Virus record (IMG/VR): IMGVR_UViG_3300037427_001592
Coordinates: 1 to 22,993 of that record
DNA: 22,993 bases
Strand: one strand, 5' to 3'
Source: a virus
Within the stretch, counting starts at the first letter, position 1; every line of letters starts with the position of its first letter. The translations under genes were made by a program, and so were the position numbers. Positions 3,601 through 11,924 of this stretch are shown in pieces. Below the pieces are notes generated by a model. The model ran no database searches. It worked only from the letters and a program-made list of their open reading frames with translations, and was not told the origin of the DNA.

Positions 3601-3903
3601 CTAGCCTGGCATTTTCATAAGGATAACCACCACTGTTGATAGTAATCCTGCTATGACTGTGCCTGCTGTCGCTATAATTGTTTTAGAATGAGATTTTTGT
3701 CCTGTCTTCATATCTTCATTGATATGATTCAAGGTTGTTTCGATCGCACTTAATCTGTCGTGTAGACCTTTATATCTTTCAGCACATAGGTCAACGTGTG
3801 CTTCTAGGTTTTGTTTTTCTAATTCTGTTGTGCTCATAATTCTCAATTCCTTTTTTACATCGGTTAGATGGTTGTAGATTGCCTGGAATTGTGCCTGTGT
3901 CAT
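3601..3903 (-). CDS. Coiled-coil protein with C-terminal membrane anchor (XhlA/holin-like)
   Basis: A 100-aa protein with a long helical, heptad-like region (about 10-68, including LSAIETTLNHINEDMKTG). One hydrophobic segment follows at about 74-97 (TIIATAGTVIAGLLSTVVVILM), with a very short tail. This layout, soluble coiled coil then a single C-terminal membrane span, is that of XhlA-type lysis-associated proteins and some spanin or holin accessories. The resemblance is in architecture only. A GATAAATA late box lies 58 nt upstream, giving this gene a longer leader than its neighbours. Other possible roles are a membrane-tethered baseplate or superinfection factor. Confidence 0.75.
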   Translation of the reverse strand: MTQAQFQAIYNHLTDVKKELRIMSTTELEKQNLEAHVDLCAERYKGLHDRLSAIETTLNHINEDMKTGQKSHSKTIIATAGTVIAGLLSTVVVILMKMPG

Positions 3904-8028: not shown

Positions 8029-8343
8029 TTATGCAGAGTAGTTAATTACTTTTCTACCTGATTTTTTAAGCAATGAAATAACATTTGATTTCATTGTTAA
8101 TGCAGAAGCCTTAGGTGCAGTACCTAGTACTTCTACTGTAAAGTCGATACCTTTTGCAAGTAACTTGTTAGTTGCAGTTTTTCTTGCAGTACCTTTTACA
8201 GCCAAGTTTTTAAACTTGATTTTGCCACCGTGTACTTCACCATTTACTTTGTATGAAGATGCCGGCTCCGCAAATACACCAATCTGCTTCGCTCTTGTTT
8301 TGAAGTTTCTTGTGTAGATAACGTATTGTGTTGAGTTTGCCAT
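8029..8343 (-). CDS. Unrecognised 104-aa basic protein, strongly expressed single gene
   Basis: No family recognised. The protein begins MANSTQYVIYTRNFKTRAKQ and is basic (many Lys/Arg, few acidic residues) and Ala/Thr/Lys-rich. It looks like a small beta-strand and helix domain ending GRKVINYSA. I chose the ATG at 8343, preceded by AAAGGA at 9-nt spacing. An in-frame ATG at 8400 with AGAGG close by would add 19 residues (MLSTMFKTLFPNHEKGKNN) and is a real alternative. It has a consensus sigma-70 promoter (8476-8503) and a strong terminator of its own. That points to heavy early expression as a monocistronic gene, perhaps a host-takeover or DNA-binding protein (inference). Confidence 0.8.
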   Translation of the reverse strand: MANSTQYVIYTRNFKTRAKQIGVFAEPASSYKVNGEVHGGKIKFKNLAVKGTARKTATNKLLAKGIDFTVEVLGTAPKASALTMKSNVISLLKKSGRKVINYSA

Positions 8344-8475
8344 GTTGTTTTTTCCTTTTTCATGATTAGGAAATAAAGTCTTAAACATTGTTGATAACAT
8401 TTTTCCTCTTTCTTTCCTTGGTTAAAAGTTATAATCGGAATTTCAATCTCTTTTATCCTTACAACTTATAAACAC

Positions 8476-8503
8476 ATTATACACAATTATAGTCTAATGT
8501 CAA
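8476..8503 (-). promoter_or_regulatory. Consensus sigma-70 promoter (TTGACA-16-TATAAT)
   Basis: TTGACA (8503-8498) and TATAAT (8481-8476) on the minus strand, both perfect hexamers, 16 nt apart. The expected start near 8469 leaves a 5' leader of about 70-125 nt before the 104-aa gene. This is the best host-type promoter in the window. Confidence 0.85.
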
Positions 8504-8526
8504 CCGTATGGGCAAACTTTTTTTGG

Positions 8527-8979
8527 TTAGTTGTCTTTAATCTCGGGAACATGAAATAAATCAATGCCTTCGTCCAGTAATTCTTCTGCTTCGTTGTTGG
8601 TAGCACTACCATAAAAGTCTTCGTTTCTTTCACCTTTGTGTGCTTTTCTGGCCTCTTTAGCAAAGTCTTTACCAACGTTCTCAAAGTTTTTCTTAACATG
8701 ATCTTCTAATTGTTTTAATAATGTTCTTGCTCTGCCACCCATTACCAACTGTTCACTGGTCTTGCTTTCAACTGTTTTCTTACTGCGTGTTTTAGATTTT
8801 GCTGTAGATTTTTTCTTAATGTTCGGAGCCATTATGTCTCTTCGTACTTTACCGTCACACATTGGACACACCAATTGTCCTGATGCTACCTGATCCTCAA
8901 AGTCTTGTATGCTAGGAAACCAGCCTTCGAACTTGTGTTTGTCATCGTCTTCACAAATAAGTTTATATTTTATGCTCAT
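8527..8979 (-). CDS. DUF1178 family protein
   Basis: A 150-aa protein with the features of DUF1178, a family found widely in alphaproteobacteria. It has an N-terminal strand with Cys9 and His15 followed by FEGWF, then CPMCDGKVRRDIMAP (38-52). The linker is Lys/Ser/Thr-rich. The conserved C-terminal block follows, with ENVGKDFAKEARKAHKGE (100-117), DFYGSAT and EELLDEGI. Cys9/His15/Cys38/Cys41 could bind a metal as a zinc ribbon. Biochemical function of the family is unknown to me. The ATG overlaps the stop of the upstream EEP-like gene (ATGA), so the two are translated from one message. A host-derived auxiliary gene is the likely origin (inference). Confidence 0.85.
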   Translation of the reverse strand: MSIKYKLICEDDDKHKFEGWFPSIQDFEDQVASGQLVCPMCDGKVRRDIMAPNIKKKSTAKSKTRSKKTVESKTSEQLVMGGRARTLLKQLEDHVKKNFENVGKDFAKEARKAHKGERNEDFYGSATNNEAEELLDEGIDLFHVPEIKDN

Positions 8980-9686
8980 ATCGTTTCATTTATATTAAAT
9001 GTTATAGGCCAATGACCAAATTTTCTTGTACTCGAGTATTTAATAACTTTGATGTTGGAAACTTCTATCCTACTATTCTTTGTTGTTATAATTTTATCTA
9101 TACTTCTTAAAGATTGTCTTTCTTGTATCGATGGTACGGTGTATGCTGGTATTTCTGCTAAATGATTTATCATTCCATTTCCTGTTAGGTTTATATCATA
9201 ATCTATTAGTTGGTCATCTTCTACATGGAGGTCTGTGCAGAGTATTGTTCTGTCGTCTACCATGTCTAGTATTTCTTTTGCTTGTTGTTGAAAGATAAAT
9301 TTGTTGACATCGTTGCCAGGATCATGAGTTTTTGACAAGTCACTTGGGTAACTTGTGAAGCCACTTATTATATTGTAATTTTTATAGCATAGTTTTTGCC
9401 AAACCTTGCATTGGTTTTCGTTTGCTCCTTCTACAAAAAAATTATAGTTGGAAAACTCAATGTCTTCTGGTGCCTTATTAAAGATAACACAGTTTCCTTT
9501 TGCCCATTCTTCTCCGTCCTTAGGACTGATGTAGTTTCTTTTATAACTGTATCTGCTTTTAATACTGCTTTTAAGATGTTCTGGATATCTATTGATCACA
9601 CAAAGATCAAACTCTTGCTCGTTTATATCAAACTCAGGAGTTTTACCAGGATTAAGTTGATTGTGATTGACGTATAGGATTTTCAT
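8976..9686 (-). CDS. Endonuclease/exonuclease/phosphatase (EEP)-like protein
   Basis: A 236-aa protein that resembles the EEP superfamily in outline. It starts MKILYVNHNQLNPG, which fits the first core strand. TILCTDLHVED (147-157) matches the position of the GDxN motif, SIDKII (195-200) fits the IDxI strand, and FGHWPITF (223-230) matches the SDHxPV end motif. Key positions differ from the canonical set (TDLH for GDFN, GHWP for SDHxP), so activity may be altered. Nearest-known members act as nucleases or phosphodiesterases. The gene overlaps the DUF1178 gene by 4 nt. A TATAAT with extended TG lies just upstream, so the mRNA would start almost at the ATG. Confidence 0.6.
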   Translation of the reverse strand: MKILYVNHNQLNPGKTPEFDINEQEFDLCVINRYPEHLKSSIKSRYSYKRNYISPKDGEEWAKGNCVIFNKAPEDIEFSNYNFFVEGANENQCKVWQKLCYKNYNIISGFTSYPSDLSKTHDPGNDVNKFIFQQQAKEILDMVDDRTILCTDLHVEDDQLIDYDINLTGNGMINHLAEIPAYTVPSIQERQSLRSIDKIITTKNSRIEVSNIKVIKYSSTRKFGHWPITFNINETI

Positions 9687-9741: not shown

Positions 9742-9924
9742 ATGCCAACTATTACAGACATATATTCTAGAGAAGACATAGAGAACAAAGATAAAAAAAT
9801 ACAAGAACTTGAAAGAGATATTGGCAATTTACAATTTCAAGTATCTGAATATCAGCAGATAGTCAAAGAACTATCAGATAAACTTACTGATTACTCTCGT
9901 ACTAAATCACAGAACAGTGAATGA
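9742..9924 (+). CDS. Small 60-aa coiled-coil protein
   Basis: No family recognised. From about residue 10 to 52 it is a continuous charged helix with hydrophobic heptad spacing (NKDKKIQELERDIGNLQFQV), likely a coiled-coil dimer, ending in a Ser/Asn/Lys tail. It has its own sigma-70-like promoter with almost no leader. Its last 34 nt run antisense over the 3' end of the amidinotransferase gene. Its small size leaves some doubt, but promoter and coding pattern both support it. Confidence 0.65.
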   Translation: MPTITDIYSREDIENKDKKIQELERDIGNLQFQVSEYQQIVKELSDKLTDYSRTKSQNSE

Positions 9925-10901
9925 TATCCATACGCAAATGTTTGTGTGTGCAGTAGGTTAGATTCTATTATTTCAAATCCGTGTGCGTTTAATAATTTAC
10001 ATAGTTCAGGTTGATCACTGTTGACCATCTTGTGTCTTTCATCTATGTTAAGCACTTGTAGATTAACATACTTTGATCCTAGAGGATGTTTGTATGCACC
10101 TTTGTCTTTTAAAGTTTCTACCCATATCTTTTTATAGTCTTTAAATATTTTTGGTATTGCTTCTCCAGACAATCTATCAGCATTACACAACAAAGTATTT
10201 TCATCCAGGGGCATCATATTATTACACAGTGATTCGTAATGATAAAATCTACCTGTTATTTCTACTTTGTATTCGTCACCTAGAACTTGTTGCAACCATT
10301 CAGCACCCAGTCTATTAGACCTAGCACTTGTGAAATACAATATAGTTTTGCCAAATTTTAATATGTCTGTTCCAACAAACAATGGTTCGTTGTTTCTTGC
10401 GTAAAGTTTATTATCCTTCTGTGCTATAGATCCTGCTTCTAATTTTGATCTAGGAGCAACAACGTATGCTCCACCATTCTCTTGAATGTATTTTTTTATT
10501 GGTCCATACACTTGTGATTCATAATGTTTAGATCTATAAGGGTGTGGACATTCAATTACTTTGTTACCGATAGTTACTAGTGTTTCTCTCATATTGAGAG
10601 TGTTCATTCCTGTACACACCCAGTCGTGTGTTGCAACTGCTGTCTTCCAGTTGGCTCTAGTAGGTCTAACTATCTCTATATCAAAATCTAATTTTAATCT
10701 ATCAATCAATAGATATATGTTTTCGTTTACACTTTCAATAACATCTTCTGGTATCTTATAAGGAAAGTGTCCGCCTTGGTCTCCAGGATACTTCAACCAA
10801 GTTTTAAACATAGGATCTTCGATAGGCCAATTGGCACCATCTGGTCTACCAACAACTATTGACTTGAGTTTACCATATTCACTGTTAGATTGTATATTCA
10901 T
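9891..10901 (-). CDS. Glycine/inosamine-type amidinotransferase homologue with Ser at the catalytic Cys position
   Basis: A 336-aa protein that aligns in outline with arginine:glycine amidinotransferases of the guanidine-modifying superfamily. It has SEYGKLKSIVVGRPDGANWP (7-26), THDW (91-94) with NKVIECPHPYRSKHYE (113-128), and EPLFVGTDILKFG (172-184, Asp179). RFYHYE (218-223, His221) and a C-terminal GSKYVNLQVLN with FAYGYHSLFCDLVRE follow. Known members move an amidino group from arginine through a Cys intermediate. The family's GGFHCWTCD-type end reads GYHSLFCD here, so the aligned catalytic Cys is Ser328 and the remaining Cys331 matches the non-catalytic one. The protein ends right after this motif. 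Activity is therefore doubtful. An ATTAAATA box precedes the start by 8 nt. Confidence 0.85.
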   Translation of the reverse strand: MNIQSNSEYGKLKSIVVGRPDGANWPIEDPMFKTWLKYPGDQGGHFPYKIPEDVIESVNENIYLLIDRLKLDFDIEIVRPTRANWKTAVATHDWVCTGMNTLNMRETLVTIGNKVIECPHPYRSKHYESQVYGPIKKYIQENGGAYVVAPRSKLEAGSIAQKDNKLYARNNEPLFVGTDILKFGKTILYFTSARSNRLGAEWLQQVLGDEYKVEITGRFYHYESLCNNMMPLDENTLLCNADRLSGEAIPKIFKDYKKIWVETLKDKGAYKHPLGSKYVNLQVLNIDERHKMVNSDQPELCKLLNAHGFEIIESNLLHTQTFAYGYHSLFCDLVRE

Positions 10902-10909
10902 TGTAATAG

Positions 10910-10917
10910 TATTTAAT
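10910..10917 (-). promoter_or_regulatory. T4-like late promoter box (ATTAAATA)
   Basis: ATTAAATA on the minus strand with 8 nt between it and the amidinotransferase ATG at 10901. Confidence 0.45.
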
Positions 10918-10938
10918 GGCTCGCTATTGGCTCGCTAT
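10917..10938. repeat. Perfect 11-bp tandem duplication (TGGCTCGCTAT x2)
   Basis: TGGCTCGCTAT occurs twice head to tail in the gap between the amidinotransferase and the 76-aa gene. It touches the late promoter box. Recent replication slippage is the simplest explanation. Confidence 0.8.
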
Positions 10939-10962
10939 TAGGTCTTGAAAAAGTGAGGATTA

Positions 10963-11193
10963 TTATGAATAGTCAGGCGTTGGTCCGCCGTACTTCTTGC
11001 CTTTGATTCTTTTGCCGGCAACTTTCTGCGTTCTTCCGCCAATCTTTTCATTACGACTGCCGGTTCTTTTCTTTTTGCCTTGTGATTTACAACTTGATAC
11101 CCACGATGCAGGTAAGTCTGATGCTGGTCTAGAACAAGCACTTGCCGGAGCAGGGCCTATGTTTTCAGTGTTTAGTACTTCGTTTATCTTCAT
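10963..11193 (-). CDS. Small basic phage protein (MKINEV start, KGKKYGGPTPDYS end)
   Basis: A 76-aa protein starting MKINEVLNTENIGPA, with an Ala/Pro/Ser-rich stretch and a basic half (CKSQGKKKRTGSRNEKIGG) ending KGKKYGGPTPDYS. I recall similar small proteins in T4-like marine phages, of unknown role. The MKI(N/T)E start is shared with the divergent basic gene at 11394. I chose the ATG at 11193. An in-frame TTG at 11211 lies inside the late box (GCTAAATA, 11209-11202) and would not be on a transcript made from it. A basic late protein could bind packaged DNA (inference). Confidence 0.75.
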   Translation of the reverse strand: MKINEVLNTENIGPAPASACSRPASDLPASWVSSCKSQGKKKRTGSRNEKIGGRTQKVAGKRIKGKKYGGPTPDYS

Positions 11194-11393: not shown

Positions 11394-11924
11394 ATGAAGA
11401 TCACAGAAATTATCCTAGTGCCATCAAAATCACAAGATACTACATCTTGTGGCACTACATCTAGTATCACACCGGCCGAGTCGGCACAGGATATAGTATC
11501 GCAAGATATTGTGGAAAAAAATAGGTTGACCACAATGGATGAACATGACGACCATTCAGCCATTGCAGAAGGCGTGAGTCAAATTTTGAGAAGAAATCCT
11601 AAAAAAGGATTGAGCAAGGGATTTAGATGTACCACCGGACCGAGAAAAGGTCGTATCGTGGCCAAACCGGCAACCTGTTTCGCGAAAAGAGATCCTGTCA
11701 AGGGTGCAAAGATCAAAAAGAAAAGACAGATGAAGGCAAGACAGGCAGGAAAGAAAATGGCCATTACCAAACGATCAAGACCGTCATCAAGAAGATTGAA
11801 GACAATTCAGACAAAAAAGAAATCATCGACTCTACCATCATTTGGAGCAATTTCATCTAGAAAGCCGTTGCAAAGATCAGGTGGCAAAAGAGCGAAATCT
11901 AAAATAGTCAAACCTAAAAAGTAG
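11394..11924 (+). CDS. Highly basic phage protein (MKITEI start, Lys/Arg-rich C-terminal half)
   Basis: A 176-aa protein. After MKITEIILV comes a low-complexity Ser/Thr/Asp region (10-50) whose DNA is made of the dispersed ACTACATCTWGT-type repeats. The C-terminal 110 residues are very basic and include GFRCTTGPRKGRIVAKPATC (77-96), KRDPVKGAKIKKKRQMKARQ and several Lys/Arg clusters. I recall this RC(T/A)xGPRKGRxV block from other T4-like marine phages, where it is uncharacterised. The composition suits a DNA-condensing or internal head protein (inference). The late box 5 nt upstream and divergent pairing with another basic MKI(N/T)E gene support a joint late role. Confidence 0.8.
   Translation: MKITEIILVPSKSQDTTSCGTTSSITPAESAQDIVSQDIVEKNRLTTMDEHDDHSAIAEGVSQILRRNPKKGLSKGFRCTTGPRKGRIVAKPATCFAKRDPVKGAKIKKKRQMKARQAGKKMAITKRSRPSSRRLKTIQTKKKSSTLPSFGAISSRKPLQRSGGKRAKSKIVKPKK
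11436..11468. repeat. Two overlapping copies of the ACTACAT dyad repeat inside a coding region
   Basis: GATACTACATCTTGTGGC (11436-11453) and GGCACTACATCTAGTATC (11451-11468) share three bases. CACAAGAT (11431) and ATCTTGTG (11444) also form an 8-bp inverted repeat. Related partial copies are ATATAGTATC at 11491 and CAAGATATTGTG at 11502. The same motif recurs at 11930, 11961, 17235 and 17266. Confidence 0.65.

Follow-up and report, generated by a model that had tools for sequence, protein, structure and literature searches.

The gene at positions 9891 to 10901 on the minus strand of the window, which is the whole stretch of 22,993 nucleotides of viral DNA analyzed here, very likely encodes a catalytically dead amidinotransferase, a pseudoenzyme that a marine T4-like phage has retained for another task. 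Judged from the sequence comparisons, the dead status by itself can be stated with even greater confidence. All three residues of the catalytic triad are replaced, and the gene is under purifying selection.

9891 to 10901, minus strand: gene of the predicted amidinotransferase-fold pseudoenzyme, 336 amino acids, with an ATG start and the stop codon at 9893 to 9891.

The open reading frame reported in the preliminary description is genuine and starts at position 10901 on the minus strand. Its product is a full-length amidinotransferase homolog, as indicated by phmmer matches in the PDB to StrB1 (1bwd, 2.6e-35), GATM (about 1e-24), HsvA, and SxtG, each spanning nearly the full length. Searches of Pfam, NCBIfam, and PHROGs yielded no named family; the matches were limited to phrog_25854, whose function is unknown, and one short, weak hit. 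An AlphaFold2 model, calculated from 63 window and locus sequences with both rows from the phage record collection left out, had a pLDDT of 90.1 and a pTM of 0.90. The best Foldseek match of this model was StrB1 (1bwd, TM 0.93), and VIA-align also placed StrB1 on top (Z 45.3, rmsd 1.9 over 334 residues), followed by HsvA, SxtG, and GATM with Z values of about 41 to 42. According to the model, the protein keeps the complete amidinotransferase fold; homology to the GATM/StrB1 family and the amidinotransferase-type pentein fold were found by phmmer and structure search, respectively. Matches in BFVD were CP20, one amidinotransferase of an uncultured phage, and one unnamed protein. The DDAH-fold pseudoenzyme RESC5 (8dpk) was also matched (TM 0.55, Z 20) and was the only non-catalytic relative among the matches listed in the structure searches.

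The family carries an Asp-His-Cys triad. The positions of the active-site residues of GATM and StrB1 were counted in the phmmer alignment. The corresponding codons in the window are as follows.

9918 to 9920, minus strand: codon TCA of Ser328, where the family has its nucleophile Cys (phmmer and multiple alignments).
10230 to 10232, minus strand: codon of Ser224, which stands in place of the catalytic His; two residues on, Cys226 takes the place of the guanidino-binding Asp (alignments).
10374 to 10376, minus strand: codon of Val176, which stands in place of the catalytic Asp (phmmer and multiple alignments).

In the C-terminal motif YHSLFCD, Ser328 aligns with the nucleophile Cys (GATM C407, StrB1 C332), as had been proposed, and Cys331 with the second Cys (GATM C410), so that the alignment with GATM and StrB1 upholds the register of Ser328. 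In phmmer, in the family alignments, and in the relatives, the catalytic Asp (GATM D254, StrB1 D179) falls on Val176 in “EPLFVGTD” and the catalytic His (GATM H303, StrB1 H227) on Ser224 in “FYHYESLCNN”. The earlier impression that Asp179 and His221 of the triad are kept was not confirmed: Asp179 aligns with the non-catalytic residues StrB1 N182 and GATM D257 and His221 with StrB1 A224, and the number 179 shared by StrB1 D179 and Asp179 of the window protein is a coincidence. The guanidino-binding Asp (StrB1 D229, GATM D305) falls on Cys226. As aligned, the loss of the triad is a replacement of all three residues (Val-Ser-Ser) and not a single change from Cys to Ser, and none of the nucleophile, base, and acid of the known chemistry is left in its place.

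The suggestion that transferase activity was lost is therefore supported more strongly than it had been made, since the whole triad is changed, as are the Asp positions that contact the guanidino group. The suggestion that substrate binding was kept is weakened. The guanidino side is altered (D170 to E106, which is still acidic, D254 to V176, and D305 to C226), while the arginine-carboxylate residues GATM R322 and S355 remain as R243 and S276.

The extent of this loss is seen in a tally of 216 aligned sequences from phages and bacteria and of StrB1, of which 165 possess DHC and 37 EHC at the triad positions. Loss of the whole triad was confined to the window clade, with VSS in four and SGS in one sequence. 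The remaining exceptions were DHG (four) and DHS (one) in Streptomyces, QHC in two distant paralogs, and two single rows, of which one was truncated and the other misaligned. On the basis of this tally, the V/S/S or S/G/S substitution pattern is far beyond what chance would produce. At 42 positions that are at least 90% identical in the intact members, the window protein deviates 21 times and its relative with 59% identity, encoded on contig L313, 19 times; for intact members, the median is 1 and the maximum 14. The family-conserved residues altered in the window protein include P104, D106, N179, H224, D226, T228, N282, R320, G324, C328, and T330, and those retained are R105, N240, R243, S276, H327, D332, R335, and several glycines and prolines, which look mostly like scaffold residues. 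FastTree placed the window clade (support 1.0) among intact phage enzymes, from which a long branch (1.12) separates it, and the nodes just beneath it had moderate support (0.64 to 0.77).

YHSLFCD with the TCA codon is also present in the IMG/VR contigs L001 and L003 (100% identity), L002 (93%), and L004 (88%, partial). A scan of bacterial genomes yielded the more distant relative with 58% to 59% identity on two contigs, L176 and L177, of the metagenome-assembled genome (MAG) “Rickettsiales MED657”. The gene neighborhood of L176 and L177 matches that of the window and the IMG/VR viral contig L313 carries the same gene, which identifies the source of this gene as a related phage. L176 and L177 hold the same phage stretch, as phage DNA binned into this MAG. 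The 59% relative contains Ser176, Gly224, Asn226, Ser328, Thr331, and Phe221 and should be likewise dead. The Ser328 codon is sound because TCA occurs in four other viral contigs and Ser in the 59% relative; identical contigs and relatives with 93%, 88%, and 59% identity exclude an assembly error. The dead clade is sampled from few phage contigs only. Comparison of these proteins shows that the putatively dead state persisted through divergence down to 59% identity.

Within the clade, dN/dS was 0.06 (window and L002), 0.09 (window and L004), and 0.04 (L002 and L004) at dS values of 0.57 to 1.07. The neighboring genes yielded 0.06 to 0.08, not considering the neighbor at 3601 to 3903, which gave a meaningless value, most likely from a mis-set frame. 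Purifying selection on the dead gene equals that on its neighbors.

The long branch of 1.12 leading to the clade might be taken as a sign of a decaying pseudogene or of an assembly or sequencing error. The frame is open and Ser is present at position 328 in every copy found, however, and the low dN/dS values together with the independent contigs rule out an origin of this kind, to which hardly any probability can be given. The least probable explanation of all is an active amidinotransferase in which Cys331, Asp179, and His221 stand in for the lost triad. All three do exist in the window protein, and Cys331 had been considered as the nucleophile before. Thr331 and Phe221 in the 59% relative indicate that Cys331 and His221 are not substitutes, the intact relatives at the same site hold the second Cys alongside the catalytic one (HCVTCD), and Asp179 and His221 are out of register with the catalytic residues.

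A neofunctionalized enzyme with a pocket rebuilt for another reaction, in which Ser328, His327, Asp179, Glu223, and Glu106 would form the new catalytic set, deserves more attention but is still quite unlikely. It would agree with the strong purifying selection and with S328, D179, E223, E106, Q282, Q320, and H327 being common to the window protein and the 59% relative despite loss of the canonical residues. Along with R243 and S276, these residues are shared across the dead clade in the pocket region, and a new active site could account for them as well, which counts against a pseudoenzyme. The dead branches differ, however, at the triad (V/S and S/G) and at the guanidino-binding Asp (C/N), leaving only position 328 constant. 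Because the other triad positions are not conserved between these branches, nothing there replaces the base, and H327, though conserved throughout the intact enzymes, is not their catalytic His. A sensor, decoy, or sink that binds arginine or guanidino compounds without turnover would agree with the retention of R243 and S276 (GATM R322 and S355) on the carboxylate side. This is very unlikely, as both guanidino-holding carboxylates are lost (V176 and C226) and D170 is replaced by E106. Moreover, RESC5 kept several pocket residues and yet bound neither citrulline nor dimethylarginine (PMC9980740).

The biological meaning of a dead but retained amidinotransferase can be approached by considering the site occupied by its gene.

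8029 to 8400, minus strand: 123-amino-acid protein, right neighbor of the cargo site, fixed across sister phages.
8527 to 8979, minus strand: DUF1178 protein, right neighbor (Pfam PF06676, 1.2e-39; synteny).
8976 to 9686, minus strand: 236-amino-acid protein, cargo in the window beside the dead gene, without a Pfam or PHROG match.
10918 to 10941, minus strand: 24-bp element CTAATAGCGAGCCAATAGCGAGCC, with two copies of the 11-bp direct repeat AATAGCGAGCC, bounding the cargo site on the left.
10963 to 11193 (approximate bounds), minus strand: small basic MKINEV protein, the fixed left neighbor of the cargo site.

The order in related phage contigs is a small basic MKITEI protein, the MKINEV protein, the 24-bp element, a variable cargo, the 123-amino-acid protein, and DUF1178. 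The cargo of the window consists of the dead gene and the 236-amino-acid protein, that of L313 of the dead gene alone before the 123-amino-acid protein. The gene downstream of the dead gene thus differs between both, and there is no conserved partner gene that would hint at a function. Eight other element-bearing contigs contain an intact DHC amidinotransferase in their cargo. One of these contigs, L317 (the same contig as L335), adds genes for a DegT aminotransferase, for a protein of the UDP-glucose-dehydrogenase type, and for a second amidinotransferase-like protein; two more open reading frames in L317 without a Pfam match are, by reading alone, presumably a glycosyltransferase and a 2OG-oxygenase. 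Other intact phage enzymes adjoin glycosyltransferase, 2OG-oxygenase, DegT, or radical-SAM genes. This gene context is consistent with synthesis of a guanidino-sugar by the intact enzyme, a product proposed from the neighborhood.

The phrog_455 protein of L317 is 81% identical to that of the window and the one of L313 68%, so that the L317 backbone is nearer to the window than that of L313. Either the dead gene predates the split between the window and L317, or cargo was exchanged; exchange of cargo at this site is likely. Judged by the phrog_455 protein (43%), Pelagibacter phage HTVC008M is the nearest cultured phage, and no amidinotransferase turned up there in a search with the window protein.

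The element CTAATAGCGAGCCAATAGCGAGCC was found in 37 stretches of viral contigs, nearly always in the same place before a cargo that varies between phages, about 22 to 26 bp past the MKINEV gene. The scan was for exact matches, which makes the exactness of these copies a matter of construction; the 22-nucleotide flanks are 59% and 36% identical. The element may anchor recombination in cargo exchange, or it may be regulatory. In L317 (2069 to 3040, minus strand), CTAATAGCGAGCCAATAGCGAGCC encodes on the other strand the last codons and the stop (GSLLARY-stop) of the second amidinotransferase-like gene, meaning that this cargo gene ends within the element.

Compared with sister phages that have this cargo site, the window clade carries the DUF1178/123-amino-acid pair (8029 to 9686 in the window, minus strand) in an inverted arrangement, and a phage-borne DUF1178 protein is kept beside this site in many related contigs. 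The 236-amino-acid protein, which ends with ...SIDKIITT...GHWPITF, gives the impression of a faint likeness to a divergent endonuclease/exonuclease/phosphatase domain. Two small lysine-rich proteins start with MKINE (10963 to 11193, minus strand) and MKITE (11394 to 11924, plus strand). Their IxE start resembles a T4-type prohead-protease signal, and they may be internal head proteins.

A late-type promoter in front of the dead gene had been suggested before. There was no exact match to TATAAATA upstream of the gene, but a TTAAATA motif makes the suggestion plausible.

10910 to 10916, minus strand: TTAAATA late-promoter-like motif, which starts 14 to 15 bp ahead of the ATG and is conserved in both the 93% and the 59% relative.

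The shorter TAAATA is over-represented on this strand, with occurrences between −20 and −6 of five of 16 minus-strand starts, compared to a mean of 0.43 at random ATGs (5,000 samples, none of which reached five). It precedes the start codon of five genes by 11 to 14 bp (2834, 5897, 7422, 10915, and 11207 in the window, minus strand), and several of these motifs are conserved in relatives. If TTAAATA is a −10 element, transcripts would start near the ATG, and the spacing suggests very short or leaderless late transcripts. The local RNA fold upstream of the dead gene was unremarkable (z of −1.4).

Taken together, the most probable course of events begins with an ancestor that may have transferred an amidino group onto an amino sugar. 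A pathway of the guanidino-sugar type would have been lost in the window lineage, while the protein was retained for a non-catalytic task. With the promoter-like motif, the dead protein would probably be made late. A non-catalytic binding role is likely, exerted through the remodeled pocket or the surface and directed to a protein partner or a non-guanidino ligand; a macromolecule instead of a small ligand is no more than a tentative preference. It is rather unlikely that the rebuilt pocket is a new selected site for a ligand or a chemistry, or that the protein is a phage binder manipulating an arginine or guanidino enzyme of host or phage. Herpesviruses are known to have pseudoenzymes that recruit their active counterparts in the cell, and a phage-specific binder would be a parallel to such hijacking.

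Phage “auxiliary metabolic genes” are usually given a metabolic role by homology alone. Structure or distant homology would name the window protein an amidinotransferase despite the change of every catalytic position. Intact and dead versions at the same site of sister phages provide a clean natural case for asking why a dead metabolic enzyme is kept.

Compared to known systems, StrB1, the inosamine-phosphate amidinotransferase of Streptomyces griseus (PDB 1bwd), is similar by full-length homology with about 25% identity and an end-to-end fold, but its D179/H227/C332 triad corresponds to V176/S224/S328 and its D229 to C226. GATM, the L-arginine:glycine amidinotransferase (1jdw), shares the fold, the family, the carboxylate-side residues, and C410 (C331), but differs at D170 (E106), D254 (V176), H303 (S224), D305 (C226), S354 (G275), and C407 (S328). 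The StrB2-type proteins of Streptomyces (L200, L202, L203, L205, and L217) are also family members without the nucleophile Cys, having Gly or Ser instead. They kept Asp and His, however, both of which are gone from the phage clade. L200 shares 71% identity with an intact enzyme of the StrB1 type and adjoins dTDP-glucose/dTDP-sugar genes, a context that fits StrB2, the second amidinotransferase of streptomycin-type clusters. The amidinotransferases of Campylobacter phage CP220 and Synechococcus phage S-SCSM2R are likewise phage-encoded, but they possess an intact Asp-His-Cys triad and reside in radical-SAM or glycosyltransferase/2OG-oxygenase clusters. A phage pseudoenzyme of the amidinotransferase family was not found in the open-licence papers searched. 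Pseudoenzymes of the amidinotransferase/pentein superfamily as such are already known, and a phage-borne member with a completely replaced triad is what is new here. A functional parallel is RESC5 of Trypanosoma brucei, which has the pentein fold without the catalytic Cys and His and is a component of an RNA-editing complex (PMC9980740). RESC5 belongs to the DDAH branch and not to the amidinotransferases, is eukaryotic, and kept several residues of the substrate pocket. Like RESC5, the window protein combines a kept fold with the absence of the catalytic Cys and His, and its gene is under purifying selection; by analogy, RESC5 shows that a pentein fold can serve in a protein complex after these residues have been lost.
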